DNA of 64,000 bases from Dysidea avara (taxonomy: Eukaryota; Porifera; Demospongiae; Dictyoceratida; Dysideidae): NCBI RefSeq assembly GCF_963678975.1, contig NC_089285.1, positions 10,774,694 through 10,838,693 of the forward strand. The letters are read 5' to 3'. The notes under the pieces are model-generated. The model saw only the letters and a program-made list of their open reading frames with translations. It was not told the origin of the DNA and searched no databases. Positions 6,801-58,622 of the stretch are shown piece by piece; the first letter of the stretch is position 1; every line of letters starts with the position of its first letter. Position numbers and translations under genes: made by a program.

Positions 6801-7864
6801 CAGTGTGTACAGAGATGTAGATTACTACAGTGGTCCATAAAACTGCTATAAATACTATCAGATGACCACAGAGCTGGATTAAGACTTCTATAGTCATCTT
6901 GTAAATCCTCCAGCCTTACAAGTTTCATGTACACTCCTGTGTGTAACAAATGTGCTTGGAGAGTGTTTGATTGCTCGTTCTTAGCTTTCAACAATGCCTT
7001 GAGTGTCATAGCTTTATTGAAATGTGTACCATCACTGTAACCCTGTGTGTAGTAAGGGTCACCATATGTTGTGGTAGCTATTACACTAGCAGGGTCTAGT
7101 ACAACTGTTAGAGCATATTTGGATGAGCGATGCAGGTTGTCTTTCAAAGATATGACCAGTTCATTTATGTCAGATGTGGTTTGATAAGTGTCAATTGTCT
7201 GTGTAGAGTTTTTCTTCTTCCTTCGTGCAAACATGTCCGTAAACAAAATAAAATGTTTTTCGGTATTTTTGTTACTAAGGTTTAATGTGGTTATTTTGCC
7301 ACTGTTGATGGACGTAACAATCGGTTTGCCATTAATGAGCTCTGAAAGGACTTGCAGACTTCTAAACACTGTGAGGAACCTTAAAGAATTAGTAGACAAG
7401 GGAGTGGTACCCCTAATCCAACTATAATTAGCTGCTTTATCAATTATAGAATTTAACTGTTCACTAGAATAAAATCTCCTAAAATCTGTTGCAATTATTT
7501 TGTTGTCACTAGTTGAAGTATAGTAAAACACTAAAGCAAATTTAGCACTAAAGTCACCATAGTTACTAGCACAGGTTGCAGCAGTTAGTTGGTGCAAAAT
7601 CTCCTTAACAATCGACATCTTTGTTTGGTTTATGTATTTTGAACTTTCCAATATAAACACAAATTCAAAATTTCTTTCCCTAGATTGGATATTATCTGAG
7701 TTAGTCACCAAACAAGTGGCTCGAGTAAACAGCTGAGAATATGACAATGGTCTGCAGACCTCCAATTCCCCCCATACTCCATTACAATACACTATTGCTA
7801 CATGTAACAGCAACAACACACCTTTTACATTCATTGCTACGAAACTGCAAAGTATAGCTGACAC
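3882..7864 (-). CDS. Secreted vWA-like / JmjC (cupin) dioxygenase-domain protein, 2 exons
   Basis: Two exons, 7864-5755 and 4303-3882, join in phase (donor AAAG|GTAAC, acceptor TTTTTGTAG|GTC) to give about 843 aa. A hydrophobic N-terminus (VLLLLHVAIVYC) is a signal peptide. Residues ~65-270 resemble a von Willebrand A fold with a degenerate metal site (ESS instead of DxSxS, later FTD). A Cys-rich linker follows (~345-362). Residues ~435-680 are a JmjC/cupin_8 domain: the iron-binding HxD is His582-Phe-Asp584 and the distal His is His662 (in PPYTWHY), with Lys in GKKRFTLW as candidate 2-oxoglutarate contact. This is the layout of FIH/JMJD-type Fe(II)/2-oxoglutarate hydroxylases. The last ~140 residues (exon 2) are not recognised. 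The signal peptide implies action in the ER lumen or outside the cell; the substrate is unknown. It is divergently paired with GLTP. Confidence 0.88.
4652..4779 (-). pseudogene. Duplicated fragment of the JmjC exon
   Basis: About 128 bp closely match 5899-6029 of the JmjC-encoding exon, in the same orientation, covering the segment from VHPMW to GDMLY. The copy carries substitutions and an in-frame stop (the Gln of KSQAL becomes TAG). It cannot replace the parent exon. It abuts a dispersed repeat, which suggests movement along with a mobile element or a local duplication. Confidence 0.85.
4795..5350. repeat. Dispersed repeat, copy 1
   Basis: Begins with GTAGGCGACCTCCCTTGTTT and shares many segments in the same order with 54600-55250, for example AAGGTAAGTC, GCATTGTAC and GAGAAAGTGCAAACCTCC. 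Shorter pieces with the same leading motif occur near 30410 and 31475. Class not identified. Confidence 0.7.
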
Positions 7865-7945
7865 ACTTCAATACCATACCCATTAAACGTTAATCTGTTT
7901 TGTGAGTTCGCGTTGCTACGTTGTGAAGAGTTGAAAGAGGGAAAA
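7865..7945. promoter_or_regulatory. Compact divergent promoter between JmjC gene and GLTP
   Basis: Only 81 bp separate the two start codons, so both 5' UTRs and the core promoters must lie here or overlap the coding ends, unless non-coding first exons exist farther away. I see no TATA box. The sequence TGAGTTCGCGTTGC in the middle has the only CpG-rich look in the interval. Confidence 0.65.
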
Positions 7946-27381: not shown

Positions 27382-27700
27382 TTAAAGATCTATCATTGGT
27401 TCATCATCATCGTCAGTATCAATATCCCTGTTTGTTGGAGAAGGGCTGGCACTACTAATAGTGACAATTTCAGAATCTGAATCATTGTTAACCCTACTGT
27501 AGCTTAGTCCATCACGTGTAGCAAGCTGACGATTACTTTTTAGTAGGTGACGGTTCCTCTTGTAAGCAAATGCAATGATGGCAAGGAATATGATATTAAA
27601 CAAGATTGAAATGAAGACACAAACAACAAGGAGCCATGGACTACTGTTATCTGTGTCAGATTTATGATTTTCAGAGGATGATGACGTCTGCTGTACCATC
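27382..27700 (-). CDS. Receptor exon 36: transmembrane helix and cytoplasmic tail
   Basis: After a Ser/Asp-rich linker, WLLVVCVFISILFNIIFLA begins a single TM helix, followed by the stop-transfer YKRNR. The ~60-residue tail has candidate sorting signals: HLL near the membrane, YSRV (a YxxPhi motif) and a terminal acidic cluster DDDDEPMIDL that resembles the acidic C-terminal part of SorLA, which binds trafficking adaptors. Stop codon at 27382-27384. Confidence 0.88.
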
Positions 27701-30700
27701 CTGAAGTGACACATAGCAGATGTAACATAATACATTACAATGCATAAAGTACACTCACTCTACACTTGTAACTTACTCGATGCTTGTGGCTGTGTGTTGT
27801 AGGACAGTAATGTCTGTAGGATCAACTTCATTCAGTTGATTAATCACCACTTGAGCTGTGTTCTCTGTAAAAGTGAAAAGAATAGTAAATAAGGCATAAG
27901 TATATCTATAAATTCTTTCATTTTTTACTATAACTCTAAAAAATTATAGTCCCTGGATGACTAGTATTAAAAATTACAGAGCTGTAAGTCATTAGTGCAA
28001 GTGACCACTCTCCTAAACACTAATAACTACATGAAGACACAAGAACAACTAGCTACAACTCCACATACAACGAATATACTTACTTGTAGGAAATATTATG
28101 ATGAAAGATACTACAATATTTGTTTTATTCTGAGAAACATGAACGCCAGTCAGCATATTCCTGTACAATATCCACACGTAGTGTACTAATCAACAGTGCT
28201 AACACTAAGTGAGTGTTACTATGCCCTGGACTGGACACTGGACTGAGCTTCTTATTTACACACATGCAAAACAATCCTCATGCTCCTTGGAACTGGGTGT
28301 ATACAAAACAATTGGTACTAATATGTTGTACAGTACTAACATTCAATCATTTTACTGTACATGTACATGGACAGCCATGGGAAGGAATACTTTTCAAGAA
28401 TGAGAAAAAAGGAATTTGCAGTGAAGTTTAAAGAACCCTTTCAAATGTAATGTAACTTCCCTGACTGGATCGGTATAGTCTCACATGTTATTAGGAAGAA
28501 TGTCAACAAAAATTGAGCCCAGTAATTCAGTCCAGTAGTTCAGTACAGTGAATGGTAACACCCATAGTAAGTGCAGTAAAGTAATATTATACTAGATAAC
28601 TACATCTCATAGTTACAATGTACAGATATAAATGCTTTATTTACACTTACTGATCAACATTGAGGACGTCTGAAACTCTTTTCAACAAAAATTTAGTGAA
28701 CTGAGACACTTGATTATCTATGGAAATTGTCGGCTCAAGGAAATTGCTGAAGGTCACCTTTACTTTAACTGTTGATCCAGAAACTGGTGAAAACACAAAT
28801 GAAATAACTGATTTATCAATGGAAAAACAGAAGTTATACAGATAAAACTTGTCAGGGGTGTAGCTAGCCTTCAGGGTTACCCTGGCACTAGGTACAGCAG
28901 TCCCCATGCAAAAAGTAAAAAAATGCGAGCCCATCTCTGTGGACTCCTTATTACACATTTGCTTTTGAAAAATTGTTTTAAAGTGTGTACGTGCTACCAC
29001 ACTGCTGTTTATGCAGCTAAGCTATTAATATTACTGCATGAATATTATAGAAACAACTGACTTAAGTTAATGCTCCAGCCTCATTAAAGACTTGCTTTTT
29101 CTCTCATTGTACCTGTATACAACTTTTCTTTAGGCATACTTCATATATCCAACACTAATATTTTGGTCTTGCTTCCCAAATCCTCGACGATAACATGACT
29201 GTCGACAGCTCTTCCCACCATGACCTGGAAAACGACAGTAGCCACCACGACTTTTGTTGGTTTTTTTATCGGTCTACCATTACATGCAGTACTGTTTTCA
29301 ACTAAGAAAGTTCACCAAAATTGTGTGTGCTCAATCCACGACTGCTCAAATTCAAAATGTGATCACGTGATGCTGTGCATTATATAGAACTTTACTTAAA
29401 GGAATTTGATGATAGCAACTGCTCAAAAGTGTCACAGATGTGCAAAAAAGAGCAAATATGTATTAATTCGTTTTAGTAGGGGTGCGCCAGGGCGGGCGCT
29501 GCAGTTTACTATGCTCGCAGCCGGGCACCAGCAGTGATTACCTGGGCATGTGCCCGGGCAGGCCCAGGTGTAGCTACGCCTCTGAAACTTGTGAATTTAA
29601 AAACAACTTACCATGATTACTGAGTGAGGAACGTTAAATTCAAGTGTGAAGTAATGTACTGTATTTCCTAGCTCGTATAAAAGCCGCATTCAATTAAATG
29701 CCTGTCTCGATTACAAGCTGGGGGGTTTCCAGCACCTCAGGAAAATAAATAATAGAGTTGTGCACCTACAAAATTTTAATCATGAGTTTATTGGTCACCA
29801 ATAATTGACGATAATCAGTTAATTGGTACAAATAAATTCCACTATTCTTAAAACAATAAAATTAATATTTCTTTATGTATGGAGTACATGTGCTTGTGTG
29901 ATTGACATTAAATTCTTATTGACTTAAGTGGGTGACTATTGATGCATAACAAAAATTTAATGCCTGGTATCAAATAGAGGCCCTTGAGTCTACTGTATGG
30001 CTTGAATTGCTTCCCTTGTTGCTGCTACTTCTGAGGGATGAGTTCCACGTGCATGCAGACATGTATGATACAATTATTTTCCAATCATTTTAAATCTTGA
30101 CGGCACTTTGTATAATCAACACACTGTATCTATACTTACCAGTACAGTAATCTCGTTCTACCACCACCTGAATTCGATTAAATGCTGGGCGTTGGTTGGA
30201 CCAATTCAAAATAAATTTCCGATCTCAAACAAAGGCGTTATTCGTTTATAGGCCGGGTCAAAAATGCTGGGAAGGAAATAAAAGCTTGGGCTTTTATATG
30301 AGGATTACAGTAATTCAAAAAGGAAGGTTGCCTTCTCTTGCAGGTATAATAGTACTTTGCCCATTTGCTGAAATAGGGGTTGAACATGCACTAGTAAAGC
30401 AACAAATGTAGGCAACCTCCCTTGTTCAGCATTTCATGCTCTTTATGGACCTTATACCTGAATATATACTCCTTGAATTTTCTTTGTGATATTTCATGAA
30501 CAATGAACTTGTGCATATCACATCAAAGAAAAGAATGATGTTGATATTTTTGACCAAACCTTCACGACCCCTACTACCATACTGTACGTATATAGCATGA
30601 TAGTACTGTATAGTAGTGATTATAAAAGCTATCCCCATCTTTCCTTCACAATAACTTGAGTAAGCTCAAACATGCATTCAGGGTTACCTGAAAACAGTTT

Positions 30701-32001
30701 CAACAAGTTTCTAATAAATATATATTTAGCTGTAATTTTCTCCTGGCACACATTATGGACTTCCTATTCCTTTCTCCACTAATGACTCATGAATATAGTG
30801 CACCAATGGCTTCTTGTGGTAGTGTTTATAATCTGTAATTTTAATACTGCGCCTGACCCCAATCCTTTCCAACAAGTTTTTAGGACATCATTTATTTATT
30901 TAGCTGAATTACCTACTAACTGACTGACTGGTTGACTGATGCCCATAGCTTGACTATGGTTAATGCTATAAGTTCGGATTCTTCACTATTCAATATCACT
31001 TCAGCCCTACATGTGCCTTTTCGTCTGGTACAATGCATACGTTATGGACTTACCTTTGTCCTCCTTTTAGTCCCATTTCTTTTCTCCACTACCACGTAGG
31101 TGTTCAATTGTAGTAACATGGTTTCACGGTAATGTGACTTCAGTGCAGCTAGCTGTCATGAAATTCATCTGTAATTCTGTTTGATTACAGCCTTCTATAC
31201 TGGTTCTGTTCAGCTTTCATTTCTCACATATACACAGGCTACTTTTAGCGTAAGCCATTTTGCTGATGTGGGTGCAGAAAGACAAGCAAATATACAAGCA
31301 GACATGCATACAAACACACACCTTTTCCGGAAGTAAACCAGGCACGTGCCCACAGCCTGGTTGAAAAAGCAAAAAAAAACAAACAAAAAAACCAAAAAAA
31401 ACAAGAGAGGTCCTGAGTGGATATTTAATTCCTACATATAAAATAGGAGGCAAATGTCCACTAGAATAGCTGCAGGTGTAGATGACCTCTCTTGTTTCCC
31501 CTACACTAGGATAACGTGTTGATAATAAGATGGTAAGAGAGAATTGTCTTATATTTGATGTGGTAATACATACATGTATGATACAAATATAACAATAACA
31601 ACAGCACACAAACAAATACACTTCTCACCATTGGCAGTGTTAAACTGGACTGGTGCACTACAGTATGGTCCAGTGGCAGCGTCATTATGTGCTCTTACAC
31701 TGAAGGTGTATTTAGTTGATGGACGCAGCAATGTTAGTGTTAGATTAGTGGTGTTGGTGAAGTAGTGTGGAACAAGCTCCCCAAGTGGATCAGAATACAA
31801 CACCACCTATGTATGTATAAACATACACAAATGCAGTAAACTGTAGATATTGAGAATGTATGCAACGAGGATACATACCACTAATACCAAATCGCACTTA
31901 TTGTATTCATTATGTGCATGTACGTAGGTGTGTGTGTGTTAGGGATCTATTATTTATTTCAGCACTGGTGTGTGTATGTGTATGTGTGTGTGCGTGTGCG
32001 C

Positions 32002-32035
<34 letters not shown>

Positions 32036-32915
32036 GTGTGTGGGTGTGTGTATGGGTGCCTGTATAGATATTATACAATGGAAGATACAACATGTATACA
32101 AAAGAGTGAGAAGACTTAAGTACACATTTCTTAAGTACACATTTGGCTATTCAAAGATTTTCTACAAACATAATATATCTGCACAATTGACACCTTTCTA
32201 TCTACTACATGCATGCGTACCTCATACTGTGTGATTTTCCCATTACTATTAACAGGTGGCAGCCATGATATCTCAGCTGTGGTGTTACCAGAATCAGGGT
32301 GCAGGTGACATAGTGGAGCTTCAGGAACTACAAACACACACACACGTACAAGCTATTGCAAGCATGAGGCAGGAATACTGTAATGTACATACACATGTAG
32401 TAGTATACAGCATCAAAATTGTTCCAATACTACACATTTCAAATAATGTATGTATAAGTCTTATGTACCACTGTTACAACTAATTTACCACCTAACAACC
32501 TGAATACATTGTTACTTGAGAGATGTCTCTATATCCTACATCATGTCTATTATGGTACTTACTATATCAAGTATGTACCCAGGTGTTGACTTAATAAGAA
32601 TATTGCAGTATATGTATTGTACACATACTGGGATATGTAGCTACATGTAGTACTGAGTATACATCAATACAACAATTTCTTTCTTTGTAATACAGGCAAA
32701 TAGCATAGTACTCACTTCCTTCCTTGGTACTTCCAGTCATCCAGTGTGTAGAATAAACATGTCCGTTAGGATGAATGGCAGACACAGTGAAGTTGTACTG
32801 TTCATATGACTTTAGTCCATACAGTGTTACTGAATACAAGTAGGGTGGGAGAATTGCCTTTAGTGAATGAGACTTCTAAAAGTATATGAAACAGTAGTAG
32901 GATAATAATTTGAGC

Positions 32916-33008
<93 letters not shown>

Positions 33009-36000
33009 TCTTCTATGGTAAATTTTGTGATATTACCATTGGGACTAACAGGAGGTCTCCAGCTCAGTTTAATACTGGTATCTGATAACGGCTCCAAAAC
33101 TACCGTATTTGGGGCCTCTGGCACTGTAGTACAGCAAATAATCAGTAAAAAACCATGACAACTAATTAATCATTTATTTATTTTATTTATTGAACAACAA
33201 ACACTCTAGGGACCTGCAAGGAGGCTAACAGTGAGCCTGTGAAGCAGGATTGTAACTGAAAATCAAGCACACATCATATTCCACAAAGCACAAGCAGGAG
33301 CTACAATCATTAGAACAATCATGGCTACCAACCATATTGAAAAGTTTCAAATGCTTCACTTCTAGAAGCATTACTCTTTCGTGGTCCAATAATTGATTTA
33401 ACTTCATAATAATATCGTCCACCAGCCTTAAGACCACAGTACTGGTAGTGTGTATCATTAACATTCTCATCAAAAATGATAACTGTACTGTGTGCTAACT
33501 GCTGTATCTCTTTCACTATAACTTCATATTGCTGTGGGGAGAAAGAATAATGTTGCATGCATTAATGCATAGCTATTTTTGCAAACACATTTACGTACAG
33601 GAAACAGTTGCATACAAAATACTATCAGTTGCAATTAAGTTACTAGCTCATGTCTTTCTTTAATACCTGCTTTATTCATTACACAGAAGGTATGGAAGTG
33701 TTGTGGTACTGCTCAAACGCAATATTGTCTTGCAAGAGTGCAAGCGATTAAAAAAAAAAACTTGCTAATTAAAAGGCAAGGTATCCATTTCACCCGTGAG
33801 TATTCATCCCTTTTCATTTGGGATGAATACTCACAAGTGAAATGGGTGCCATGTCCTTTAATTAGCAAGATTTTAATTGCTCACATTCTTGCAAGACGAC
33901 ATTGCGGTACCGTATATGAGAATATATATATACAAAGTAAGACTAACATCAACATCTTGGATATTGCTGTTAATATCTAATGGTGGACTCCACATCATAT
34001 CAGCACAACTGCTGTTCATCACTCTGGATGTTGGGTATCTTGGGGAGTTGGGGTCTAATGGAACATACATGTTTACACACATGGATGATTGCATACAAAC
34101 ATACATTATTACTACACACCAATGGTTGTATACTTACTGTATTGCCTCGAATTACGGCCAGTCTCGTATAAATGCCTGGTCCCGTTTAGTCGCCAGGGGT
34201 ATACAGTATCATAACAAAAATAAACGCCGGGTCTCGAATAAATGTCTAGTGCAGTCATTATTTTTAACAATTCCGTGCATTGTTATAAACGATGAAGTGA
34301 AGAACGTTTTATAGAGTTTCCTGTAAGCTTGAATCTGAAATATGCTGAGGGAAACATCAAGGAGACTACAACACCAAGGCATGAAGTTGACTCGTGAATG
34401 CTGATCAGGTATATAAACGCTGATCACGTATAGTCACCAGTCTCGTTTAGTAGCTGGGGTAAAAAGTTGCTTGAAAGAAATAAACACCCGGGCGATAATT
34501 CATTACAATACGGTAAATGAGATACAGTTCATATTCTGAGTGTGTACATGGGTCCATGTTGAACATAGCTTAGATAATATCATACTAACTCTCCCAACAT
34601 AACAAATGTGCACACTTCAGAGTTAAGAGCATACATGTAGGGAGTAGACACATGTGCTATACACGTACACATGTATGTCTTTCAGTTTGAGTGTATCGGG
34701 TAGTCTTGAGAGTTCTCCATTAAGGCTGGAGACTCACAATAGCTCCACCACCACCCATGGTCTTATGCTTGTGTTACAGATACAGTTATGGAACGTTCCT
34801 TTAAAATCATGGCTACAGACCACCAGTAGTTAGTTTACAATAGACTAAAGTAAATTCACACTACAGTTGGCTGCAGTCATGGTGAAAATTTCCTTTTAGC
34901 ATTCCCAAGCTGTACTACATACATATAAATCTTAAAACTGCATAATTCCATGTGCATACTTCAACAACAATGTTTTGGTCACATATGACACTACAGTACT
35001 AGTGTATTGTAGGAGAGTTTACAACAAAATGTTAAACTAAATTATACTATCTAACTTTCTTGCTACATGCATACTATGTAGAACACTAAGGTGCTTACTA
35101 TCTTGACTGACGTAAGTTGAAACAAGCACTGATGGAATACTGTTCAAACTGTGTCCATCAACATCTCTAACTACTGCTATCACCTGTAAGAATGTAAGAT
35201 AATACAACCGAATGAAATGATTGAATACTGTGCAAATTTTGTCTGTATGTCATGTACACACACATGTACACACCACAACACACGCATGTAATATATGTAC
35301 TAATACCATACCTGTTTCACAGCCCATACAAAAGTCTCAATAGTAGCAGTGAAATTTATCCCGTATTTCACTGACAGCAGTGAAAAGTTGTAATTGCGAT
35401 TTCATTGGCTATAATTTATGTAACAGTATTATGTAATTAGTGTTTAGCGCCTGAATCCGTTACGTTAGCAACGCTAGTTCAATGGCTTTTAATATTCCAG
35501 AAGATTTCTTTTCTGACGAAATATTGCAGTTTTTTAATGACAGTGACATTATAGGTACTGATACATTCTCAGAAGAACTTACGGCACCTGAAGTCGATGC
35601 AAGCTCCAGCTCGAGCTCCAGTGTGTTCGCTTCAACAACGGAAAAGGAGATACAAGGTCTACTCGAGAAAAACAAGAATGGAAACACCATAAAGTCTACA
35701 GCCACGTGGGTAAAGAGGTTTGAAAAGTGGAAGAAGGAAAAGTGTGTATCTGTAGATTTGCCAAATATTTCTGCGCTGAATTTGAACGTTGTTTTACAGC
35801 AGTATTTTGCTGAAATTCGCAATGAAAAGGGAGAAGAATACGCACCCGACAGCTTAAGAACAATGCTTTCAGCAATGCACAGATATATAAAAGGTACTGG
35901 ATACAGTCACAACATTCTTACAGCACCAGAATTTGCTAGTGCCAGGGAGGTACTCAATGGAAAAGCTATTGCATTACGCGAAAGTGGGAAAGAAAAGCGA

Positions 36001-48000: not shown

Positions 48001-51000
48001 AGTAATTTGTTAGGATACATTAGAGTCTATTAGACACTGTAATATAGTGGCCGCTTTGTAGGTACTTTACATGTAATGTACATACATGTTCATGTGTATA
48101 TGAATTATGACTAGAACATGGTAAAAGTTAAATGTCAGTGAAATATCACCTGGGCAAGTATAAGTTCTTGGCAAAAAATCCCTTTCTTGTCCACCCACAC
48201 ACTTGTCTCCAAAAATCTTCCGGTATCCAAGGGTGATATAGTACTTATTACCAGAAGGACAAGGGTAAGGTATCCCATATGGGATATCAAACTCATCAGA
48301 TGGTGTACACTCAGCATTGCCATCATCTTCTTCAAACCCAAAATCACTATAAACAAATTAAGTGCTTATATAACATGGCTAAAATACAGAAATATGTAAT
48401 TATTTTATAATGAAACTGAGTGCATCAAACACTTTTAAATTTACAGTTAATCAAAGACACAACATCTTTAAATTAATCTACTGTTTGTCCTAACCACAAA
48501 TCTGTTATATTGTGTATTCAGGGGTGGACCCGTCAAGGGGGGTGCACCGTGACCAAGAGTAGTCGGTAGCTATATAAAGCAAGGGGTATGAGGCAGGTAT
48601 TATACATGTTTCAGGCTTTAGATCACTTAGAAAGTATGATTTATTACTATGATTTAGACCCTTTTTGTGGTGAATTTGGTGGATTTTGGAGGTGTCTAAG
48701 TTACTTAGACCCTTTTTATGTTTACTTAGACCCTTTCATGTTTACTTAGACCCTTTTCATGTTTATTACGCGCACCTGCACTGGTAGCGTTGGCAACGCA
48801 TCGCCACCTGAAAATTAATTTTAAACCCGTAACTGTTGTTACGGGTGGAGTAATGGCTTGTTTCTACTAATGAACGCTACATTTCTCTGTTACCAGCAGC
48901 TGTCAACAATGTTAAGGTACAACAACTACATAAAGGGGCTAAATAACTTAGACTTCAGACCACAGGGGTCTAAGTAATTTAGTGACCCTCAGGCCTTGTA
49001 GTAGCGCCTTCGCTTCGCTCAGGCGCCACAACACAGGGCCATCAGGTTACTAAATTAATTAGACCCCTGTGGTCTGAAGTCTAACTATTACTTAGATATT
49101 TGTCCATAAAACTACTGTACATAAAAATTTCAGTAATGAGTTTCACTATAAGCCTAAAGTAAATTGTTGACATACAAAGGACCAAGTGAATGTAATTTGC
49201 CCCAGCAGGCTACATAGCCCATGGGCTATGCTGCATATGCAAGTTTGAAGGATTCTTAACAGCACTATATCTAGTGACTGTTCTATTAGAGTATTTTGAC
49301 AGACTTTTTGATGGACTGCTCTATTAGAGTATCTCAAGTAACAAACTCTGTATTGATACACCCAGTAGTGATCACCCAGTAGTGATCACCCAGTAGTGAT
49401 ACACCCAGTAGTGATCACAATAGTAGGTATAGTATATGGAATAAAGTGTATAGTAAATGTTTTCCCTGAGCTTCTCCTTGTTACCGTAACATCAGGTTGT
49501 TAAGTGCATGTGCTCATAATTTTTGGAGAAAAGTCTTGTAAAAATAATACTAGCTGTTAGGTACATACACCTAATTTATAATTATGATGTGTTTTAACAA
49601 TGAATCACTATGTTGTAATAGTAGTCGTGGCCACCAAGTCAGTGAAGAATATTTGACTCCATTTCTGGACGAAATCCTTTGTGATGAACAAGAATATCAG
49701 TGTATATGGAGATCTCAATGCAGATGTAAGCACTAGTGATGTGCAATATACTGAAAAATTATCGAAATTGTAATTTTTTTATAATAACATCGTATCGAAT
49801 CTCAATATTTTTATAATTGATATCAATATTTATCGTTTAGTCAATATTTTGCTACAATTTTCAATATATTGAGTAATATTTTGGTAATTTACAACTTTTG
49901 GTGTGTGATTGTGCAATCACGGTAGAAATGAAGCTCAGTTCTGTAAAGTTTAGCCATTTTAAAAAGCATCTACCAGTTTCAAGTAGCTAAGCAATGTCGA
50001 TAATTTTTCAGTATATTGCACATCACTATTTCCAAGGCTTGTTATTACCTTCATCACAAATTCTATAAAGCATATATAGCTGCTAATTATAAACAATTGC
50101 CCCATGCAATTAATCAAAAGAAAAAAAACCCAAAAGTATTGAAATTTCAATATTTTACCAATTATCATATCGATATCATACCAAAACCAAAATCCTAATA
50201 TCGCACATCACTAGTAAGCACTTGAGGAAACATTAATTTCCAGCTTGTCTTCCCATGCGTAGCTTTGTCACGTGTAAGCCTTGCATTGGGCCATGTGCAC
50301 TTATCAGCCATGGTTAATCACAGGAAATGTGTATGCAATTAACAAATAGGGGCGTTACTATTCAGTGGACTGGAACACTGGACTGGACTTCTGGACTGCC
50401 ATATTTTTGGTTTTTGCACATTCTACGGTTGGATTTATGGAATCTTGCTAGTAAGCACCCTTAGGGTACCTGCAGCCCACTTCTAAATGCTGAAGATAAG
50501 CAGTGGAATATGCGAAAACTGTATTTCACTACCGTTCATTATGCCACTATACAGCACTTATTCCTTACCCTGGTGTGTAGTAATGCTGCAGGCAGTGCAG
50601 GGAACATGACAGCAATAGTTAACCAATGATCAACAGACAACATTCTGCGAGATATCCTTAGTTTTGAGGAGCAAGGTAGTCTTGCATGGCCAGACCTCTA
50701 GTTCAGTGCAGGGGCTTACCAATTAGAGTTTTTTCAGCACAGGCACCTATAATCTTTACTGCTAAGAAACAGAAATGTGGCAGCGAAACTAGCTTGCTCC
50801 TCAAGTTTGCTCTAAGGATATCTTGAAGGATATTGTCTACTGGCAAGTTGATTGCTGGTTAACTATTGCTGTCACATTCCCTGCATTGCCTGCAACATTA
50901 CTACACACCAGGGAACTCAGGCATAATAAACAGTACCAAAATTATTAAGAGACAGTTTTTGCATATTCCACTGTTCATCTTCAGCGTTTGGAAGTGGGCT

Positions 51001-54000
51001 GCAGGTGCCCTAAGGGTAATTACTAGCAAGACTCCATAAATCCAACCATAGAATGTGCAAAAAACCAAAAAAATATGTCAGTCCAGTAGCCCAGTCCAGT
51101 GTTCCAGTCCAGTAGTCCAGTCCACTGAATAGCAATGCCCAACAAATAGTATGTACATATTAGACACATGCACTTAACAACCCAACTCTACGGTGTTCCA
51201 AGACAAAATAACATGACCATTAAGTTTCCATCCAACTAATCATTACGAACATCACATCATGGAACAATATGGCACTCAGATAAAATCAAAATAAATTAGT
51301 AGCCATTAGAAAGCCATGCAGTTATTACTTTCTGAACACACCTGACAAGTTGTATCAAACCAGTCTACTTTCAATATAAGAGTACAGTACACAGGTACGT
51401 ATGGGACCAACTATATCTTACTTGTATACAATGATACAACATTTAATTTTAAACGGAACAACCATACCATTCAAAATCTTCACGTGAGCAAGGACAGATG
51501 GTTCTATTGATAAATCTCTCATATTCTCCCCCATTTAGACAAAGATGATTGGCTACTTTACGTTCAAACGTCTCCCTCTCACCAAGTGTACACTCATGGT
51601 TCTCAAGGTTGTCAGATGGTGACCACAAGAAATAATCATTAGCAGTACACTCCTCAGCTGTAACAGGTACGATATTGCATGGAATATAATAGCTAATAGT
51701 AAGAATTAGGCAATAAATACTTCTATTACGGTGAATAAATAATAGTAAACACGTGTATGGGTTGTGTGCAGCTTTCCCTATGTATACAGGCCTGAAAGTA
51801 TTGGGTTAATTTCTCAAAGAAAACGACAGTAAAACATTAAAATGTTGCACATGAATAAAAAAAAAACACTAACACAAGATTGTGGAGAAGTCGACCCTAA
51901 TCATAACCCAGTTGTGTGGAGTTACTGAGGTGTTAGCACCATAGATACCAAACACTGTTGTGGCTTCACCAGGTTCAGTTAACATGCCGTACACACGGAA
52001 TGTACTAGTGTTGCTAAACTGGTAGGAGTACCATGTAGCACCCTCATCAAGACTGTACCTGTGATGAGACAAGTATAGTAACATAACACTACCATTAATG
52101 GCAATAACATTTCACATACACATTTATGTCACAGGTTGAGTTACTTGCAAACAAACAGACGTATATCAGAATTTAATAGTGCTTACTCAAAATGGTCAAT
52201 GCCACCTCCAAAGTTCTGTTCAACTGCCACGAGAACACTGCCAAAGTCACCAAACTGATAATAATGTCTCCCAGTGAGTGCCTGTAGTGATAGGTGTTCA
52301 CGTGATATTATGTAGCCACACACAACAGCGACAGCACAAAATACAATTTACGGAACAACTAATATGTATCTATGTGCATAGGCGTAGCAAGCACCTCGTG
52401 GTTGGGGGGACCATACAATGGTAAGGGTAAAATAAAAGCCGAGCATGCTAAACTAGGGGGTCTAAGGGCATTCCCCCTCAGGAAAGTTTTTTTTTGAAAA
52501 CTAACACTATTTCAAAGTATTTTTAGTAGTAAAAACATGCTTGAATCATTCCATCAGTGCATTCTTACTTGTGTAATTTACGTCAGTGACAAACAACATT
52601 GTGCTTATACGAAAATTAATTTTAGAGGTGCTTGTTGCAATCGTCAATCTAAAGTGTTGCTAAAGAGTCACTGTGCAAGCTGATAGTTTCATGAGTTCTT
52701 TATGGATTGTTGATTGAATAGAAAGGCGAAATATAGAGTGGCCTCCTGCCTATCATATGTAGTAGTAATATTATGACTGAAACTAAAATAATTACTATTT
52801 TCAATGGTAAAATGGAACACCTACTAGGCTGGCTGGTTTACCTTAATGACACACATATCCACACATTATCCCTACACTATTGTCACTATGCAGTCCCACA
52901 AACACTCACATCAACCCACGATGCTCCAGATGTGTTAGAAACAAATAAATTATAATAGTAGTTAATAGATGTGCTAACAAGGTTAGTACCAGTAAAACCT
53001 GCCAAAATACAATAAACAGAGGATAATATACCAATACATGAATGTATAACTGTACCAGATGCCATGATGATGCCTGGAGTTGACTCCTTAGAGTAGATTG
53101 GTTCCACATAATACTTGGAGAGTGAAAACTGGCTGGCCAAGTGGAGTGAACAATCCGGCTATGTGTGTGTGGAGAGAGAAATACAAATCAATCATAGCAG
53201 TATTAACGCTGGGAAGTGAAGCCATGTGTATACCACTTGTTGTCCAGGTAACACACAAATTACCCATACATGAGTAGTAGATATACATAATGTACATATT
53301 AGTTTGTAGGTATCCATGAAGCCATACCCATTTATAGGAAATGTGTTTTGCTATCAGTAAGGATTACTAATCGTTAATAAAACTTACCTGCTTATAGCTA
53401 CCTGTTTATGTAACTTGATACGCTTGTTGCTCGGCCAAAATATAGCTCCAGTGCATGCCTTGGTATTAACTAATCTGGGTCAGATTCAGGACAAATCTTG
53501 GTCAGTGGGACATCCAGGTCAGCAGTATTGACCAGTTTTCAATGCTCACACACACACACACACTACACACTACACACTACACACTACACACTACACACTA
53601 CACACACAAAACAACACACTACACACACAAAACAACACACTACACATACTTACCCATTCACAATTGAGTAAATGACCATTAGCCCCATATGTGGGAGGTC
53701 TCAAGTGTTCCCACACTCCACCCTTATCAAATGTGATGAAACTCTCTAGTTGTTTATTAGAGTTGATCTGTGATGCGATGTATGCCCCCTTCAATCCTTC
53801 TACCTTGTGGAAGTCAATCACTTTGTATGATGGCAGGTAGCTACAATAGTGAATATATTGTGATCAATATGCCAGTATAATAAGTGCCATATTACAGATC
53901 ACAAAATTTGTACATATACTGTGAAATGTATGACTGCTTTATTAGGGAAATATGTTAAGCTTGACAATCCTATGAGTGATATCTGCAATGACGTTTCTTT

Positions 54001-57000
54001 TCATTGCAATTACAAAATTTGCATAATTGGCAAAATGGCCATGTTAGTACAGGGCTTCAAAGACTTTGGCACACAATATTCAAAATGAATGCTGTCTGTA
54101 GTGTTTTACACATGGATCCATTATATAATAAAGGTAAGAAGTATTACATGTACCGTGACAGTGCAAAACGCGCTCCAACAGGGAAAGCAGACCAAAAATG
54201 TTAAATTCGGATGCAAATTGGCCTATTTGAATTGCATTATAAACTATATGCCTCACCTTCGCCCCTTTTTCGAATTTATAAACACTATCATAGGGAAACA
54301 CTATCTCGCCCAATACCTCTCCCTGTACAAAGTCCCCACACCATGGTGGCCATTTTGTTTTGTGACATCATAGATAACATGAAACAGAACCGAAGTGAAC
54401 GTCATTGCGGATATCGTTCATTGCACCATTGACTGCCTTATCTTTAATTTTACAAAAATTAGGAGTTTTAAATTCAATTAGGGATCATTGAAATAAAAAG
54501 TAGTGAAACAAGGGTGGTAATTGCAGATATAGTAGTGGAGACATTTAATCTCTAATTCATTCATGGCTATACACTGAATTAGGGATTCCAGTGTATCTGC
54601 AGGTGTAGGTGACCTACCTTGTCTCACTATTTTTTATTTCTATGATCCTTAATGGAACTAAAACTAAACTTGCTTGTATAATTATTTTGCAAAATAATTA
54701 TTACTGGTGAACTCTTGCATACCACATCAAAAGATAGAATGGTGCCAAATACAGTGAAGTGGCTATTACGCTTTGTTTTCAGTTTTGTTCAGCATGTTAC
54801 AAATGAAGAACAGTACAAGGGTCTTTGCAATATATCCGGTCACTACAAAAAATACGGACAATTTTAGATATAACCGTGATAATCAGCAGATAGGAAGCCA
54901 TAATGTGCTATATTGATACCTTTGCACTGTCAGTGAAAAGACATAAAGGAAGACAAAGGTAAGTCAGTGATGTATGCATTGTACATATTGCAGCATGCAA
55001 AAAAATACTTGTCGGGTTGAAGTGATATTTAACAGCGAAAAGATCAAGCCATTATCTTTAGCCGTTATTGAGTTACAAGATATCAGGCAGGCAGGGAAGG
55101 CAATAAACAATTGTCTTACACAAAAAGTTGTATTAACTTATCTCTAGCTGCTCTGAAAACACTTTGTACTTGCCAAGCACCATGAAGGTATTGATTTCTG
55201 GTCAATATGTCTTGCAAGAAAGTGCAAACCTCCATGATCCCTACTATACAGTACTACTGATTTATTAAAAAAAAAAAACTGGACACCTGATGCCGCTGAG
55301 CTACAAAGGACACTACAGATTGATGTCTATGCTTACACAAACTTACAGGGCATAGGTGTTCCCAGACAGTGCCGGGTCATCAAACACGACGTTGTCCAAA
55401 GAGAGAGAGTAGCTAACTCCCTCCTCTTCTGAGATGTACAAGTTGGACAAGTTCTTCCTATGGTAGACTGCTACAAATACTTGTTGTTCAGAAGTGTCCG
55501 CAATGTAGTAACTCTGGAACAAGAACATGTCAGGTTGTAAAAGATGCTCTAACTAATGAAACACAGGAATACGGTATGTAGCATGTATGTGATGCTCTGG
55601 AAAGACATTTAAGTGTGCTTTGTAAATATATTGTGCATGTAGATGTGTACATACTTTTTCAGTTATTCTCTCTCCTTCAACACTTTGTGGGAACTGAGCT
55701 TGTTTGAATGGTCTCCGTTTATAAGACACCATCAAAGTGAGTGAGTTACTATCAGCTGGCTACAGATACAGTATCAGTATATAATAGCAGCAGCATGTGA
55801 TATAACACATACACACACATGCACGCGCACCAGTGCAAAAATTACAATAGGGCAGGCTCACATGATCCTTAACAGCAAACATATAATCATCACTAATACT
55901 GAACTGCAACACTTCGGACATGATCAGACGTGAACTAGACATGTCAGTAGCCACCTCATACACATCTGACAACCTGCTACCTGTAATGACATTCACTATG
56001 GTAAGGGATAATGTATTATAACCTGTAATAATAATAATAGCATAGTATGTAGTTCACCAATGAAGCTGTGTTCTATGAAGCTTAGCATGTACAGTATTTG
56101 CTGTAGCTTCAATAACTTATTTTGAACCCAAAAAATTTCTTTGTTTTGGTCTGTCCACCTAGATCACCTATCTACACATATAGGAAGTCCATATAAACTG
56201 GATATTTGATCACTACTATTGTTGTTACTGTATTGTGGACACTAACTAGACTACTGTCCAGTCTATATGATCATTGATAAACTCACTTGAATCTTGTACA
56301 ACTTCCAGAAATATTGAATTGTTGACTGGATTCCTAAAACGTAGTGGAGATTATAACAGTATTACTGTGTATTTACAAGGTATGCCACTAGCAGTGTATT
56401 ACAGAATGTTACACAGTATTAAATACACAACAGCGTATATACAGAAAAGCCTGGTAGCCTTGACTGTATAAATAGAATACTTGAAGTTTCAGTTGGATAC
56501 CATTCTTTCCTATACTGTATAGTAACCTAGGTTTAAAGAACAAAGCCAGCCAACTTGAATTACCTACAAAGTTGCCTGTGTAGTAAGGTCAGCAAACTTT
56601 GGTCCCGACCAAAGCACACAAATTGTTAGTAGTTGCACTACACTCACCAAATAGCCAACCTCACTCTTTTACCAGGAAACACTTCACTGCTATTGTGCCA
56701 TGTCTCACCAAGGTCTGTAGTCGTGTACAGCTACAATGAAATAAGGACAGCGATTATCCATACACTCTAAAGTCAACATGAATCCTGGCCATCTTGTAAC
56801 AGCCCTTATAAGCTAATATGACATTGTGAAAACAAAATGGGTTACATGTGACAGAACTGGTCAGTCTTATCATGTGCACGTTACTAATCTACATTTGTCC
56901 AGTATAATGACAAACACACTAGGACTATCACTCACTATTCCACTGTTCCCGTCCCGGACCTTCATCACCTCCAGTGTTGGGTGAAAGTCAACTGACGACG

Positions 57001-58622
57001 GTACAAATGGTAGGAGATATTTCGCAAAAGTGTGACAGTCATCAGGGGACACAAATATTGCTCTATTTGTGGCATCCACAAACACATACTGGAAAAGAAA
57101 ACAAGAATTTAGTCAATCCATTCACACAGTAAAAAACCTTCATATATCTATAGTAATAATAAGTTGTACACACTAATGTATAGTATAGCTAACATACCAG
57201 TTGATATGTGAGTGGTCCCCTCAAAAAGTAATCCAGTCGAGCAGGTTGCGTCCTAGATACATTCAGTGTTACAATGTCAAAGAATAGTCCATAGTCATGG
57301 GATATATGGAGCCTGCTACTCTTTGCTGCCTGAGTACCCAGTATGACCATCGTGTCACTACTGACCTTACCACTCCAGTCCAACTGGATCTGGTAGTGAC
57401 CATCCTGTAGGTCAACCTATGGCAACAAAGTTCTTTAACAGTGAGAACAACTACAAAACACAACATTCTTCTAGGGATAAACTCACAAATCTATATTTAT
57501 GATCAAGGCAGAAGTGGGGCTACGCAGACCATCAGTAAAACGGGTTGATTCAGAACTTTTGATTTAAAAGTACTCCATACTATGAGCCACATGTTTAATA
57601 AAACAATGTACATGTAATGGACTAAAATGTGGTTAGTACCAAATAAAGGAATGCACACAAAGAGGAAAGAAAACGGAATATTGTTGCTTTTGTAATCACT
57701 TATACCAACTTTACAGACTCTAAAGTCTACTCAATGTCAAGGAATACATAAGCCACTCACAGAGACTTTAAAATTATAATAATTTATTTAATGTACATAT
57801 GTAGGAGTAAATCCTTCATTCACTATGTTGACAAAAAACCCTAACCCAATCTTCAATTCAGGTTAAATTGAATTGATTATGAAAACAGCTAATGGTCATA
57901 TACTTAATAGAGCTTCTGTATTTGCATTAGTTTCAGGATCATAATTCTTGTGTCACAGCTAGATGAACATACAAGGACACTTGCACAAACACATACATAC
58001 ATTATCAGTTTGGTTGCAACAGTTACTTTTGTAAGCTAGGCGCTTAGCTAGAGAGAACCATTGAAACATTCAATAAAATAAAGATCAAATCTCGGTCTCA
58101 TGCAACCTCAACCAATATTTGTGTCGGCACGGCAAGGTACAAACTATACAAAATGGTTGATTATATTAAATGGCTCCAAGCAAATTCTTTGTGAGCATGA
58201 TATGCACATATATACTAGCTGCATTGTCAACAGTTTGTCTGATGGAAGCCCTAACACCTTAATTCAGTACAGAATGGTCTCCTGGTAAAGTGGTGACAAA
58301 TCTACACATATAGGCCACAATGTACATCTCATCTCATTCTTCAGAGTGACAAATGATAAACGAAGCTCGTTCAGTATATTCTGTGCTAACAATTAAACAC
58401 TCAGCTTACCACTACGACGTCAGGAGTGACAGAGGGGTCAGGTCGTACAGTTGCTCGGCGTGTACGAGTGTTCAACACATCGGTATGTTCATCGGGGGCG
58501 TGGACTTGAATGATCTTAGAAGACTGCCGCTTTACTGATCGAGTAGCACTACTGTTAGCCCTGCTGAACACGATACCGATCGCTACAATACACAATAAGT
58601 TTGCTGCTTTGAATAATCGCAT
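27382..58622 (-). CDS. VPS10-domain sorting receptor with PKD and fibronectin III domains, 36 exons
   Basis: 36 exons encode about 1,591 aa with unbroken phase (4,776 nt). Order: signal peptide 1-20, furin-type site RTRR (53-56), VPS10 ~72-590, 10CC ~590-717, PKD1 ~718-810, PKD2 ~811-900, five FNIII ~901-1386, SEA-like ~1387-1486, TM ~1507-1531, cytoplasmic tail ~1532-1591. VPS10 receptors carry cargo between Golgi, endosomes and the surface and can signal. VPS10-10CC-PKD-PKD is the SorCS plan; FNIII repeats before the TM and an acidic C-terminal cluster are SorLA-like. YWTD propeller and LDLR-A repeats of SorLA are absent. Orthology to a single vertebrate family is therefore left open. Exon coordinates are given block by block in the entries below. 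The main doubt is whether all blocks belong to one transcript. Confidence 0.88.
27777..28783 (-). CDS. Receptor exons 33-35: SEA-like membrane-proximal domain
   Basis: Exons 28783-28651, 28160-28084, 27864-27777. Pattern: VKVKVTFSNFLEP, helix QFTKFLLKRVSDVLNV, strand TNIVVSFIIIFPT, helix TAQVVINQLNEVD, strand ITVLQHT. This alternation resembles a SEA/ferredoxin-like fold, placed as the membrane-proximal domain is in SorCS receptors. I see no GSVVV-type self-cleavage site. Exon 34 acceptor was set at GTACAG|GAATATG because it alone keeps phase without an extra exon. Confidence 0.65.
28209..28565. mobile_element. Degraded relative of the 50350-51140 element
   Basis: Left end GAGTGTTACTATGCCCTGGA and right end TGAATGGTAACACCC resemble the termini of the element at 50350-51140, and both contain GGACTGGAC-type tandem motifs. 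Target duplication imperfect. Lies between receptor exons 33 and 34. Confidence 0.5.
28853..29584. mobile_element. hAT-like element, second copy of the CAGGGG-TAGCTA family
   Basis: Starts CAGGGGTGTAGCTAGC and ends TAGCTACGCCTCTG, flanked by the perfect 8-bp duplication AAACTTGT (28845-28852 and 29585-29592). Same family as 10120-11033. It lies 70 bp upstream of the acceptor side of receptor exon 33. Confidence 0.85.
29657..30312. mobile_element. TACYGTA-ended MITE, copy 1
   Basis: Left TACTGTATTTCCTAG with TATAAAAGCC, right GGGCTTTTATATGAGG with TTACAGTA. Interior has CCTGTCTCGATTAC. Related to 34135-34515. Located in receptor intron 32. Confidence 0.65.
30400..31620. other. Receptor intron 32, remainder
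   Basis: No exon or gene recognised. Short pieces of the GTAGGCGACCTCCC dispersed repeat occur at about 30410 and 31475. Confidence 0.4.
31629..32327 (-). CDS. Receptor exons 31-32: fibronectin III domain 5
   Basis: Exons 32327-32221 and 31806-31629. EISWLPPVNSNGKITQYE, then VVLYSDPLG, LRPSTKYTFSVRAHN and a C-terminal APVQFNTANG strand. Most complete FNIII match in the gene. The intron between the two exons contains a GT-rich microsatellite (about 31928-32055). Confidence 0.88.
31928..32055 (+). repeat. GT-rich microsatellite
   Basis: Imperfect (GT)n with GTGC, GTAT and GAGT variants between receptor exons 31 and 32. Confidence 0.9.
32716..33123 (-). CDS. Receptor exons 29-30: fibronectin III domain 4
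   Basis: Exons 33123-33008 and 32875-32716. KLSWRPPVSPNGNITKFTIE and LKSYEQYNFTVSAIHPNG are classic FNIII strings. The exon 29 donor (GTGAGTG) runs straight into an ~80-bp GT microsatellite, so part of the 5' splice site is repeat. Confidence 0.85.
32919..33003 (+). repeat. (CA)n microsatellite at a splice donor
   Basis: About 40 uninterrupted CA units on the plus strand. On the coding (minus) strand it begins inside the exon 29 donor, GTGAGTGTGTGTG. Confidence 0.97.
33333..34054 (-). CDS. Receptor exons 27-28: fibronectin III domain 3
   Basis: Exons 34054-33948 and 33531-33333. DMMWSPPLDINSNIQD followed by QYEVIVKEI and LKAGGRYYYEVKSI give the FNIII core Trp and tyrosine corner. The intron between them contains a snap-back inverted repeat (33718-33907). 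Confidence 0.82.
33718..33907. repeat. Snap-back inverted repeat
   Basis: Two arms of about 90 bp (CGCAATATTGTCTTGCAAG ... and its near complement ending GACGACATTGCGG) around a short loop (TTTTCATTT). Sits in the intron inside FNIII domain 3. Confidence 0.85.
34135..34515. mobile_element. TACYGTA-ended MITE, copy 2
   Basis: Left TACTGTATTGCCTCGAATTA, right ATTCATTACAATACGGTA; interior has repeated AAATGCCTGG/CGTTTAGTCGCC-like units and ACACCCGGGCG. Same family as 29657-30312. Confidence 0.7.
35099..37558 (-). CDS. Receptor exons 24-26: fibronectin III domain 2
   Basis: Exons 37558-37461, 37287-37171, 35183-35099. QVAWDPVNAPSVTYQ then VLIYGHSST, SASYFFQ|VIAVVRDVDG and a VLVSTYVSQ end strand. 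The domain is interrupted by a 2-kb intron carrying the antisense Crypton; the Crypton's right end lies only 17 bp from the end of exon 25. Confidence 0.8.
35482..36843 (+). CDS. Crypton tyrosine recombinase
   Basis: Uninterrupted ORF of 453 aa. Residues 55-150 form a helical N-terminal core-binding-like region (TATWVKRFEKWKKEK, SLRTMLSAMHRYIKG). The catalytic part shows Arg217 (FGTRGCQEHH), Lys252 (EGPTKTRQGG), the HxxR box His348-Arg351 (TNHSVRKTM), His374 (SGHKS) and the nucleophile Tyr383 (LRDYSD). This set is the tyrosine recombinase signature, and EHHQIKIEDL with EGPTKTRQGGL is typical of Cryptons and Crypton-derived animal genes. All catalytic residues are present, so it may be active or recently active. 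A basic stretch KEKRKRK (170-176) may be a nuclear signal. Unrelated in function to the receptor it lies within. Confidence 0.9.
   Translation: MAFNIPEDFFSDEILQFFNDSDIIGTDTFSEELTAPEVDASSSSSSSVFASTTEKEIQGLLEKNKNGNTIKSTATWVKRFEKWKKEKCVSVDLPNISALNLNVVLQQYFAEIRNEKGEEYAPDSLRTMLSAMHRYIKGTGYSHNILTAPEFASAREVLNGKAIALRESGKEKRKRKADFVTTEDEQTMWNNGILGSSTPQNLNYTMFFLLSQNFGTRGCQEHHQIKIEDLKLIYNPSSGEALYVDWVEGPTKTRQGGLAKQERCVSQRMFAIGGDRCPVKIFQKLLNKRPEPLKSSGPLYLTPLQDFQGQADVWYSQKRMGINKINSFMKDMAKQSGLSNSNKRYTNHSVRKTMVHKLQKAGFSNDKIASISGHKSEQSLRDYSDIDMEDHQQISHTLSYNTRSDCQKLSKQIHSDAEFCSVQSTSLPLYNFTNCTVSTYYQQSSNVFTLEED
37005..37147. repeat. Palindromic terminal block of the Crypton
   Basis: Imperfect palindrome beginning TAGCATGGGTAGCAGTGAAA and ending with its complement, with a short hairpin GGCTTCGCC at the centre. 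Two further copies occur at 44217-44374 and 44570-44729. Confidence 0.88.
37859..38869 (-). CDS. Receptor exons 22-23: fibronectin III domain 1
   Basis: Exons 38869-38758 and 38037-37859. QVNWDKAP gives the core Trp, AGYHIYYK the Tyr strand, LSPGTEYQFQLMV the tyrosine corner. It enters in phase 1 from PKD2, which supports one continuous transcript. Donor of exon 22 is GTTTGT, weaker than average. Confidence 0.82.
39200..39840. repeat. Inverted-repeat segments with AAAACTTTGGC
   Basis: Inverted pairs AAAACTTTGGC...GCCAAAGTTTT occur at about 39289-39330 and 39780-39830, and another pair (AAGTCCCTACTTTGGC) at about 39142-39205. These look like termini of one or two decayed MITEs. No gene recognised in the intron between exons 21 and 22. 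Confidence 0.5.
41160..46972 (-). CDS. Receptor exons 19-21: second PKD domain
   Basis: Exons 46972-46872, 42502-42402, 41230-41160. Joined they read FIVQPNIIKPMIGEEVTF, then TFYWSING, LTISFDSPG and a final VMVKANNS...STVNVIG strand, a PKD pattern. The 4.4-kb intron 19 is full of repeats (43616-45108). Exon 21 uses an acceptor at CTGTAG|CATTGC; a later AG would bring an in-frame stop. Confidence 0.82.
41274..41524. mobile_element. TGTGACCGG inverted-repeat element, copy 2
   Basis: TGTGACCGGATTTGCGAAAA at the left and its complement at the right, TA flanks, 251 bp. In receptor intron 20, 44 bp from the acceptor of exon 21. Confidence 0.85.
42911..43530. mobile_element. Element with GGGTCA-rich ends
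   Basis: Left ATTGAAACCGGGTTGGGTCA and right GTGACCCAGTTTCAACG form a terminal inverted pair. A truncated relative (about 53320-53545) keeps GTTAATAAAACTTACC, TGCATGCC and the right end. Class unknown; no ORF. Confidence 0.65.
43616..45108. mobile_element. Element with terminal arrays of an 18-bp repeat, itself invaded
   Basis: Termini ATTACAGGTTTTTGCAATTG (left) and its complement (right). Left array 43624-43840 is about 12 tandem units of TTGCAATTGAATTCGTCG with variants. The right array is the same repeat inverted, in two parts (44157-44210 and 44970-45100), split by the Crypton-like insertion 44209-44969. A unique core of about 315 bp (43841-44156) has no recognised product. Confidence 0.82.
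44209..44969. mobile_element. Non-autonomous Crypton relative
   Basis: Ends GTACTAGTAATAGCATGG and GTATGGTATTACTAGTAC. Its right ~130 bp is the complement of the left flank of the Crypton at 35297, and it carries two copies of the Crypton palindrome (44217-44374, 44570-44729) separated by a further inverted repeat around TGCACAGCATGCG. No recombinase ORF. Inserted in the 18-bp repeat array. Confidence 0.8.
45109..46870. other. Receptor intron 19, remainder
   Basis: No exon recognised. ORFs at 45502-45756 (-) and 46361-46627 match nothing I know and break the receptor frame. Confidence 0.4.
47158..47285 (+). repeat. (CATA)n microsatellite
   Basis: About 30 units of ACAT/CATA, grading into ATGC units at the right edge. 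Between receptor exons 18 and 19. Confidence 0.97.
47328..47984 (-). CDS. Receptor exons 16-18: first PKD domain
   Basis: Exons 47984-47858, 47803-47735, 47407-47328. Strands are recognisable: VIVGVGQSIEFHV, KFTWYSSD, SYVFTFNRAGLFFVTAGIV and an IDLDVVEVYG end strand. This matches the PKD/Ig-like fold that follows 10CC in SorCS receptors. A CATA microsatellite begins just downstream of the exon 18 donor, in the intron. Confidence 0.85.
48150..51657 (-). CDS. Receptor exons 14-15: 10CC module
   Basis: Exons 51657-51468 and 48346-48150. Together they contain exactly ten Cys, the count that names the 10CC module of VPS10 receptors. Diagnostic strings are EECTAND, HECTLGERE, CPCSREDFECDFG (spanning the exon junction in phase) and LGYRKIFGDKC. 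In sortilin this module packs against the propeller. The 3.1-kb intron between the two exons holds two target-duplication-bearing elements (49734-50213 and 50350-51140). Confidence 0.93.
48520..49100. repeat. Repeat with AGACCC motifs and a terminal palindrome
   Basis: Several spaced TTACTTAGACCCTTT units (48690-48755), then a palindrome (about 48950-49083) whose arms contain GACTTCAGACCACAGGGGTC and whose centre is GCGCCTTCGCTTCGCTCAGG. Starts with CAGGGGTGGACCC. Probably a MITE; no gene. Confidence 0.6.
49358..49412 (+). repeat. Short tandem repeat CACCCAGTAGTGAT
   Basis: Four imperfect tandem copies of a 14-16 bp unit in receptor intron 14, just after two CTATTAGAGTAT motifs. Confidence 0.9.
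49734..50213. mobile_element. hAT-type MITE with 8-bp target duplication
   Basis: Ends TAGTGATGTGCAATA and its near complement ATATCGCACATCACTA, with perfect flanking GTAAGCAC (49726-49733 and 50214-50221). A second internal inverted copy of the left end (TCAGTATATTGCACATCACT, about 50007-50026) suggests a nested or rearranged structure. Confidence 0.88.
50350..51140. mobile_element. MULE-type MITE with 9-bp target duplication
   Basis: Long inverted repeats starting GGGCGTTACTATTCAGTGGA and ending with the near complement, flanked by perfect AACAAATAG (50341-50349 and 51141-51149). The 9-bp duplication and long TIRs fit Mutator-like elements. Interior tandem GGACTGGA motifs. No transposase. 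Confidence 0.88.
51874..58622 (-). CDS. Receptor exons 1-13: signal peptide, propeptide, VPS10 propeller
   Basis: Exons 58622-58410, 57416-57198, 57088-56936, 56730-56648, 56333-56287, 55980-55862, 55759-55655, 55513-55347, 53840-53654, 53158-53056, 52998-52910, 52281-52187, 52058-51874. Exon 1 has MRLFKAANLLCIVAIGIVFS (signal) and RTRR, a furin-type site as in other VPS10 pro-receptors. Asp-box-like motifs mark propeller blades: TTDLGETW, ITFDKGGVWEH, VSNTSGASW and YSLDEGATWYS. CSLHLASQF and ALTGRHYY align with the conserved C-terminal half of sortilin-type propellers. Exon 13 uses donor GTTAGT rather than a GTGTTA two bases earlier, because only this keeps phase with exon 14. Confidence 0.9.
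53549..53646 (+). repeat. ACTACACAC tandem repeat
   Basis: Tandem (CACACTACA)n and CACACAAAACAA units directly downstream of the exon 9 donor of the receptor. Confidence 0.92.
54600..55250. repeat. Dispersed repeat, copy 2
   Basis: Matches 4795-5350 in order and orientation: starts GTAGGTGACCTACCTTGTCT and ends near GAAAGTGCAAACCTCC. In receptor intron 8. Confidence 0.7.

Follow-up and report, generated by a model that had tools for sequence, protein, structure and literature searches.

A receptor of the sponge Dysidea avara with a VPS10-10CC region of the SorLA branch and a predicted SorCS-like PKD pair

A stretch of 64,000 nucleotides of the Dysidea avara genome (contig NC_089285.1, positions 10,774,694 to 10,838,693; hereafter the window) carries a gene for a VPS10-domain receptor in which two PKD domains, as known from SorCS, stand together with fibronectin type III (FNIII) domains, as known from SorLA. 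This raises the question to which branch of the family such a receptor belongs, and how its combined plan arose. From the present analysis it appears to be a receptor of the SorLA branch whose PKD pair is of the SorCS type.

The gene was rebuilt on the minus strand by script as well as by hand. It consists of 36 exons (58622 to 27382) in a single open frame, with GT-AG borders at 35/35 introns, and the spliced exons are letter for letter identical to the NCBI model P0001 (1,591 residues), which is named 'VPS10 domain-containing receptor SorCS2-like [Dysidea avara]'. The gene of 36 phase-keeping exons on one strand that had been seen in the preliminary description is thereby confirmed. For exon 6, the acceptor at 55980 leads to this product, and an acceptor at 56022 leads to 1,605 residues. 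The authors of the D. avara genome paper relied on RNA data for an annotation of their own (PMC12909245). The features of the gene are:

27382..58622, minus strand: whole receptor gene, 36 exons, protein of 1,591 residues (splice of the window equal to NCBI model P0001)
58410..58622, minus strand: exon 1, hydrophobic N-terminus, by eye a signal peptide, followed by a propeptide that contains RTRR at residues 53-56 (splice; RxRR aligned in relatives)
51874..57416, minus strand: exons 2-13, VPS10 propeller, the end of exon 13 running into the Sortilin_C match (Pfam 2.6e-81; PDB match to SorLA)
48150..51657, minus strand: exons 14-15, 10CC with its ten Cys complete (Pfam Sortilin_C 554-716)
47328..47984, minus strand: exons 16-18, PKD1, phase-1 intron at its start (Pfam, fold model, splice)
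41160..46972, minus strand: exons 19-21, PKD2, phase-1 intron at its start (Pfam, fold model, splice)
37859..38869, minus strand: exons 22-23, FNIII 1 (fn3 scan, home-made profile, splice)
35099..37558, minus strand: exons 24-26, FNIII 2 (fn3 scan, home-made profile, splice)
33333..34054, minus strand: exons 27-28, FNIII 3 (Pfam, home-made profile, splice)
32716..33123, minus strand: exons 29-30, FNIII 4 (Pfam, home-made profile, splice)
31629..32327, minus strand: exons 31-32, FNIII 5 (Pfam, home-made profile, splice)
27777..28783, minus strand: exons 33-35, predicted membrane-proximal beta-alpha-beta-beta-alpha-beta domain, SEA-like or SoMP-like (AlphaFold2)
27382..27700, minus strand: exon 36, transmembrane segment (residues 1509-1529), then a tail that contains YSRV and ends in DDDDEPMIDL (hydrophobicity, splice)

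The protein is a member of the VPS10-domain receptor family, as it has both the VPS10 propeller (residues 106-549, Pfam 2.6e-81) and a 10CC (Sortilin_C, 554-716, 5.8e-37) with ten Cys at 592-716. The best PDB sequence matches of the propeller are SorLA (3wsy and 3wsx). From Pfam and exon borders, PKD1 (718-809), PKD2 (810-900), FNIII 1-5 (901-1386) and the membrane-proximal domain (1387-1485) follow, and hydrophobicity near the C-terminus is highest at 1509-1529, ahead of a tail of 62 residues that ends in DDDDEPMIDL at residue 1591. Pfam PKD matches two stretches (7.4e-11); PKD_3 at 821-886 is under the cut-off in the full protein (7.7e-5) and over it when the PKD region is scanned alone (4.5e-7). 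Pfam fn3 matches four stretches (4.2e-38), FNIII 1 and 2 scanned separately give two fn3 stretches, and a home-made FNIII profile matches the exons of all five; the first of them scores as FNIII although it lacks the usual proline-rich start. The domain order given in the preliminary description, from VPS10 to the acidic tail, is confirmed, apart from the SEA-like label of the membrane-proximal domain. The list of Pfam matches to P0001 (E-value up to 0.1) contains no YWTD, EGF or LA family. Downstream of the 10CC, 8/8 domains (first exons 16, 19, 22, 24, 27, 29, 31 and 33) begin at a phase-1 intron, as compared with 12 phase-1 introns among the 35 overall; the chance expectation of 2.1e-5 is supportive rather than independent, since the borders were set after the exons had been seen.

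The phylogeny of the VPS10-10CC region that the preliminary description had called for was computed twice. The first tree had 28 rows (7 sponge-type proteins, P0066, 13 SorLA chosen from many, 5 outgroup sequences and two PDB chains), and in the second (34 rows) six VPS10 fragments of D. avara were added, one of which, DysC10_E, fills 46% of the columns. In both trees the 7 sponge-type rows, P0066 and the 13 SorLA form a single clade (99/94 and 100/97), and forcing the sponge rows to group with SorCS2, represented by one sequence only, is rejected by the approximately unbiased (AU) test (p 0.025 with 28 rows, 0.009 with 34 rows). Within the clade, two alternative orders of sponge, P0066 and SorLA sequences are not rejected (p 0.39 and 0.42). 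The clade also shares a long stretch between SLSL and the next DF/DI-type motif, of 27-31 residues in 21/21 clade rows as against 15-19 in 7/7 others. Judged from these sequences, the D. avara VPS10-10CC belongs with SorLA, apart from SorCS2, sortilin and the six paralogues. The combined plan of the supposed SorCS/SorLA intermediate is real, but its position is not midway between the two. From sortilin, in which the transmembrane segment follows directly after the 10CC, the protein differs by the intervening PKD and FNIII domains.

In SorCS1-3, as in the D. avara protein, two PKD domains follow directly after the 10CC, whereas SorLA has a YWTD-EGF-LA block at this place. The predicted fold of the D. 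avara pair had SorCS2 as its best match among 350,542 PDB chains, and in this modelled sense the pair may be called SorCS-like. This favours retention of an ancestral pair over a new gain.

The FNIII array is a likeness to SorLA in its position in the membrane-side half, and a difference from SorCS1-3, which have no FNIII between PKD2 and the membrane-proximal domain. Two papers give the number in SorLA as six (PMC7427315, PMC9673319), as compared to five in D. avara, and the two arrays have no order match. Among the proteins with this plan, the common FNIII order of Dysidea with P0005 and P0008 stands at 1/120 orders each, as does that of P0066 with the same two; the match of Dysidea with P0066 is weak (14/120 orders).

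A further domain between FNIII and the membrane distinguishes the protein from SorLA. Its AlphaFold2 model (mean predicted local distance difference test score, pLDDT, 60.6) follows the order beta-alpha-beta-beta-alpha-beta, made up of four strands and two long helices, and closes with a short helix. Such an order suits a SEA domain. The 'SEA-like' label of the preliminary description is a match in topology only; no SEA match was obtained with Pfam (E-value up to 1), nor any PDB profile match for this domain. The structure matches are generic ferredoxin-like, and SorCS2 is absent from the 50 listed for this model. The domain is also compatible with the SoMP domain of SorCS1-3, which in SorCS2 is reported to span residues 958-1066, to have an RRM-like fold and to be processed within a disordered loop (PMC6065357). 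Five of the seven proteins checked (P0005, P0006, P0008, P0009 and P0010) have in their membrane-proximal domain a basic motif (KQKR, RERR or KQTR), which aligns to the loop before the second helix; it is absent from P0001 and P0066. On the modelled fold, SoMP fits as well as SEA, and we lean towards SoMP.

Relatives with the same plan were collected by two protein searches, the first giving 4 matches within a set limited to the 7,985 top-ranking candidates, and the second 348, of which the best 120 were examined. A search with a three-row profile gave 10 matches, mostly SorLA and fungal proteins, and brought in no SorCS. The whole domain order, which the preliminary description had proposed to seek in other sponge, ctenophore and cnidarian genomes, is found in P0008 of Oopsacas minuta and also in P0005, P0006, P0010 and P0066; the N- and C-terminal parts that match those of D. 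avara sit in one protein in each relative. The plan is thus present in two sponge classes, Demospongiae (Dysidea) and Hexactinellida (Oopsacas), and, as suggested earlier, it bears on how the family split. P0005-P0007, P0009 and P0010 are labelled glass-sponge-type because of their grouping with O. minuta in the tree. VPS10-10CC identity of D. avara with P0008, P0005, P0006 and P0010 is 38-39%, and the three relatives that were segmented (P0005, P0006 and P0008) have five FNIII each. Compared with D. avara, these four have weaker Pfam PKDs and, in the membrane-proximal domain, the basic motif; PKD scores among the relatives are uneven (9.8e-15 in P0066, 4.7e-8 in P0010, 2.3e-5 in P0005, 0.0034 in P0008, no match at 0.1 in P0006), and identity to the D. 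avara pair over their aligned PKD region is 17-23%. Two shorter proteins, P0007 and P0009, have a single Pfam fn3 stretch each and the transmembrane sequence SILFNxIFL in common with P0001. NCBI names P0008 Sortilin-related receptor-like and its Dysidea equivalent SorCS2-like; the same gene under two database names suggests that annotation transfer has hidden the plan. The sponge VPS10-10CC-PKD-PKD-FNIII plan is not the subject of any title found in a search of the open-licence literature.

From the sequences, the combined plan appears to be encoded by one gene. At the junction of exons 21 and 22 (41160/38869) the frame is kept, with a phase-1 intron, donor gtatgt and acceptor gcag, and the NCBI model crosses it. 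As the plan is common to O. minuta, other relatives and P0066, whose record name appears to denote one complete transcript open reading frame, an artefact of gene prediction is unlikely.

The history that we hold to be probable is that of a stem-SorLA receptor with a retained ancestral PKD pair, later swapped for YWTD-EGF-LA in the cnidarian/bilaterian line. Kinship and fold together would suggest an ancestor of SorLA and SorCS with the plan VPS10-10CC-PKD-PKD; in sponges the SorLA line would have kept the PKD pair, with FNIII behind it, and in the cnidarian/bilaterian line a YWTD-EGF-LA block would have taken the place of the PKD block. Such a block swap would be structurally easy, as each border between domains downstream of the 10CC has a phase-1 intron. 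Several observations weigh against this history. SorCS and sortilin are represented in the trees by one long-branched sequence each, and in three D. avara paralogues the spacing from SLSL to DF/DI is 22. SorCS2 is not singled out by PKD sequence alone, as the PKDs of collagenase and endoglucanase score above those of SorCS2 in profile comparison. In addition, 365/720 orders fit as well when sponge and SorLA FNIII are compared, where great divergence could hide a match, and common descent of the two arrays is not supported by their sequences.

We attach a clearly smaller, though appreciable, likelihood to the sponge receptor having kept in full the plan ancestral to both lines (VPS10-10CC-PKD-PKD-FNIII-SoMP-transmembrane segment-acidic tail), from which SorCS would have lost FNIII, and SorLA would have swapped PKD for the low-density lipoprotein (LDL)-receptor block and lost SoMP. 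It is unlikely that the PKD pair was gained anew, through a PKD-less SorLA-branch receptor taking up two PKD by exon shuffling independently of SorCS: PKD is a common mobile module, flanked here by phase-1 introns, and the collagenase and endoglucanase scores point the same way, but the site right after the 10CC and the number of two are the same as in SorCS, the two-domain fold is matched best by SorCS2, and a PKD-bearing VPS10 paralogue exists in the same genome. Still more doubtful is that the protein is orthologous to SorCS and acquired its FNIII between PKD2 and SoMP, its SorLA likeness being retained ancestry. This would agree with the NCBI name, the PKD pair, the membrane-proximal order of strands and helices, as would be expected for an RRM-like fold such as SorCS2 SoMP, and the basic loop motif in five of seven proteins, SorCS2 being processed in the disordered SoMP loop, but the VPS10-10CC trees and AU tests stand against it. 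That prediction misjoined two adjoining genes, with exons 1-21 coding for a SorCS-like receptor and exons 22-36 for a membrane protein with FNIII, is very improbable, since the 2.3 kb intron at the joint and the missing usual start of FNIII 1 are outweighed by the unbroken phase, the NCBI model across the joint, the same entire plan in other proteins, including P0066 with its transcript-like record name, and the shared SILFNxIFL segment.

By analogy with SorLA, sortilin and SorCS2, the protein would act as a type I VPS10-domain sorting receptor. The tail combines the terminal acidic DDxP end, a likeness to SorLA, with YSRV, which we take to be a YxxPhi-like sorting motif. P0066 has YSVL and DDDPLLVA; in the six glass-sponge-type proteins the tail carries YATL, YAIL, YRIL or YAVL and terminates in TPLL(S) or IPLL. 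SorLA binds retromer via FANSHY and is transported by GGA adaptors (PMC9673319), whereas by eye no FANSHY-like motif was seen in the D. avara tail. The propeptide would be cut by a furin-like protease at the convertase-like RTRR site (RxRR is aligned also in P0005 and P0066), and the propeller may bind peptide or protein ligands. The five FNIII would extend the stalk, and the PKD pair and membrane-proximal domain would determine the shape and may form dimers like those of SorCS2, for which a PKD-based dimer contact has been published (PMC6065357). Cycling between Golgi, endosome and surface would be steered by YSRV and DDDDEPMIDL.

Six further VPS10 regions were found in D. avara, five on C10 (23.36-23.61 Mb) and one on C3 (33.08 Mb), which group together (89/90) outside the SorLA clade in the 34-row tree. 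Home-made PKD, FNIII, LA and YWTD profiles were run on 20 genome stretches and the window, with several paralogue flanks partly covered; the window gene served as control for PKD and FNIII, while LA (5 segments) and YWTD (20 segments) had no DNA positive control. Within these stretches, FNIII matches (9 open reading frames) occur in the window gene only. One C10 paralogue (23.40-23.43 Mb) resembles it in having VPS10-10CC followed by PKD, and differs by at least four PKDs (four clear matches), no match to the home-made FNIII profile, and its position outside the SorLA clade. LA and YWTD scores from these uncontrolled profiles are weak and partial (0.04 to 0.5), and weak PKD scores near two further C10 loci (0.067, 0.23) and at 39504 (0.38) were left uncounted. 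The five C10 regions lie within about 260 kb (23.35-23.62 Mb), and two of them, C10_D and C10_E, are nearly alike (end branches 0.07 and 0.10 in the tree), which suggests recent duplication.

Other elements were noted in the window. An open reading frame of 462 residues lies on the opposite strand in the exon 25/26 intron (35455-36843, plus strand), with matches to DUF3504 (1.6e-25), QRICH1 (6.1e-9) and phage-integrase (9.0e-8); presumably it is a tyrosine-recombinase of a crypton-like mobile element. At 36916-37356 and 44107-44823 the reading 'NSMGSSEIWDKYH' occurs on both strands in at least three copies, of which one adjoins exon 25; these probably represent a family of mobile elements with inverted repeats. 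The large exon 19/20 intron has two minisatellite-like arrays (43558-43871 and 44889-45207) that read AIEFVAFAIEF or TNSIAK as peptides. Further to the left, the window has long open reading frames of 712 residues (5729-7867, minus strand), by eye a candidate cupin/JmjC-type protein, and of 416 residues (217-1467, plus strand).

SORL1, which encodes SorLA, is among the major genes linked to Alzheimer's disease, and its product combines VPS10 parts with those of the LDL receptor. The sponge receptor suggests the form of the SorLA line before the LDL-receptor parts came in. If this reading is true, it would be a concrete pre-swap state of that line, the swap would date from after the sponge split, since the coral Acropora (P0116) already has the LDL-receptor block, and the ancestral dimer geometry would become testable.
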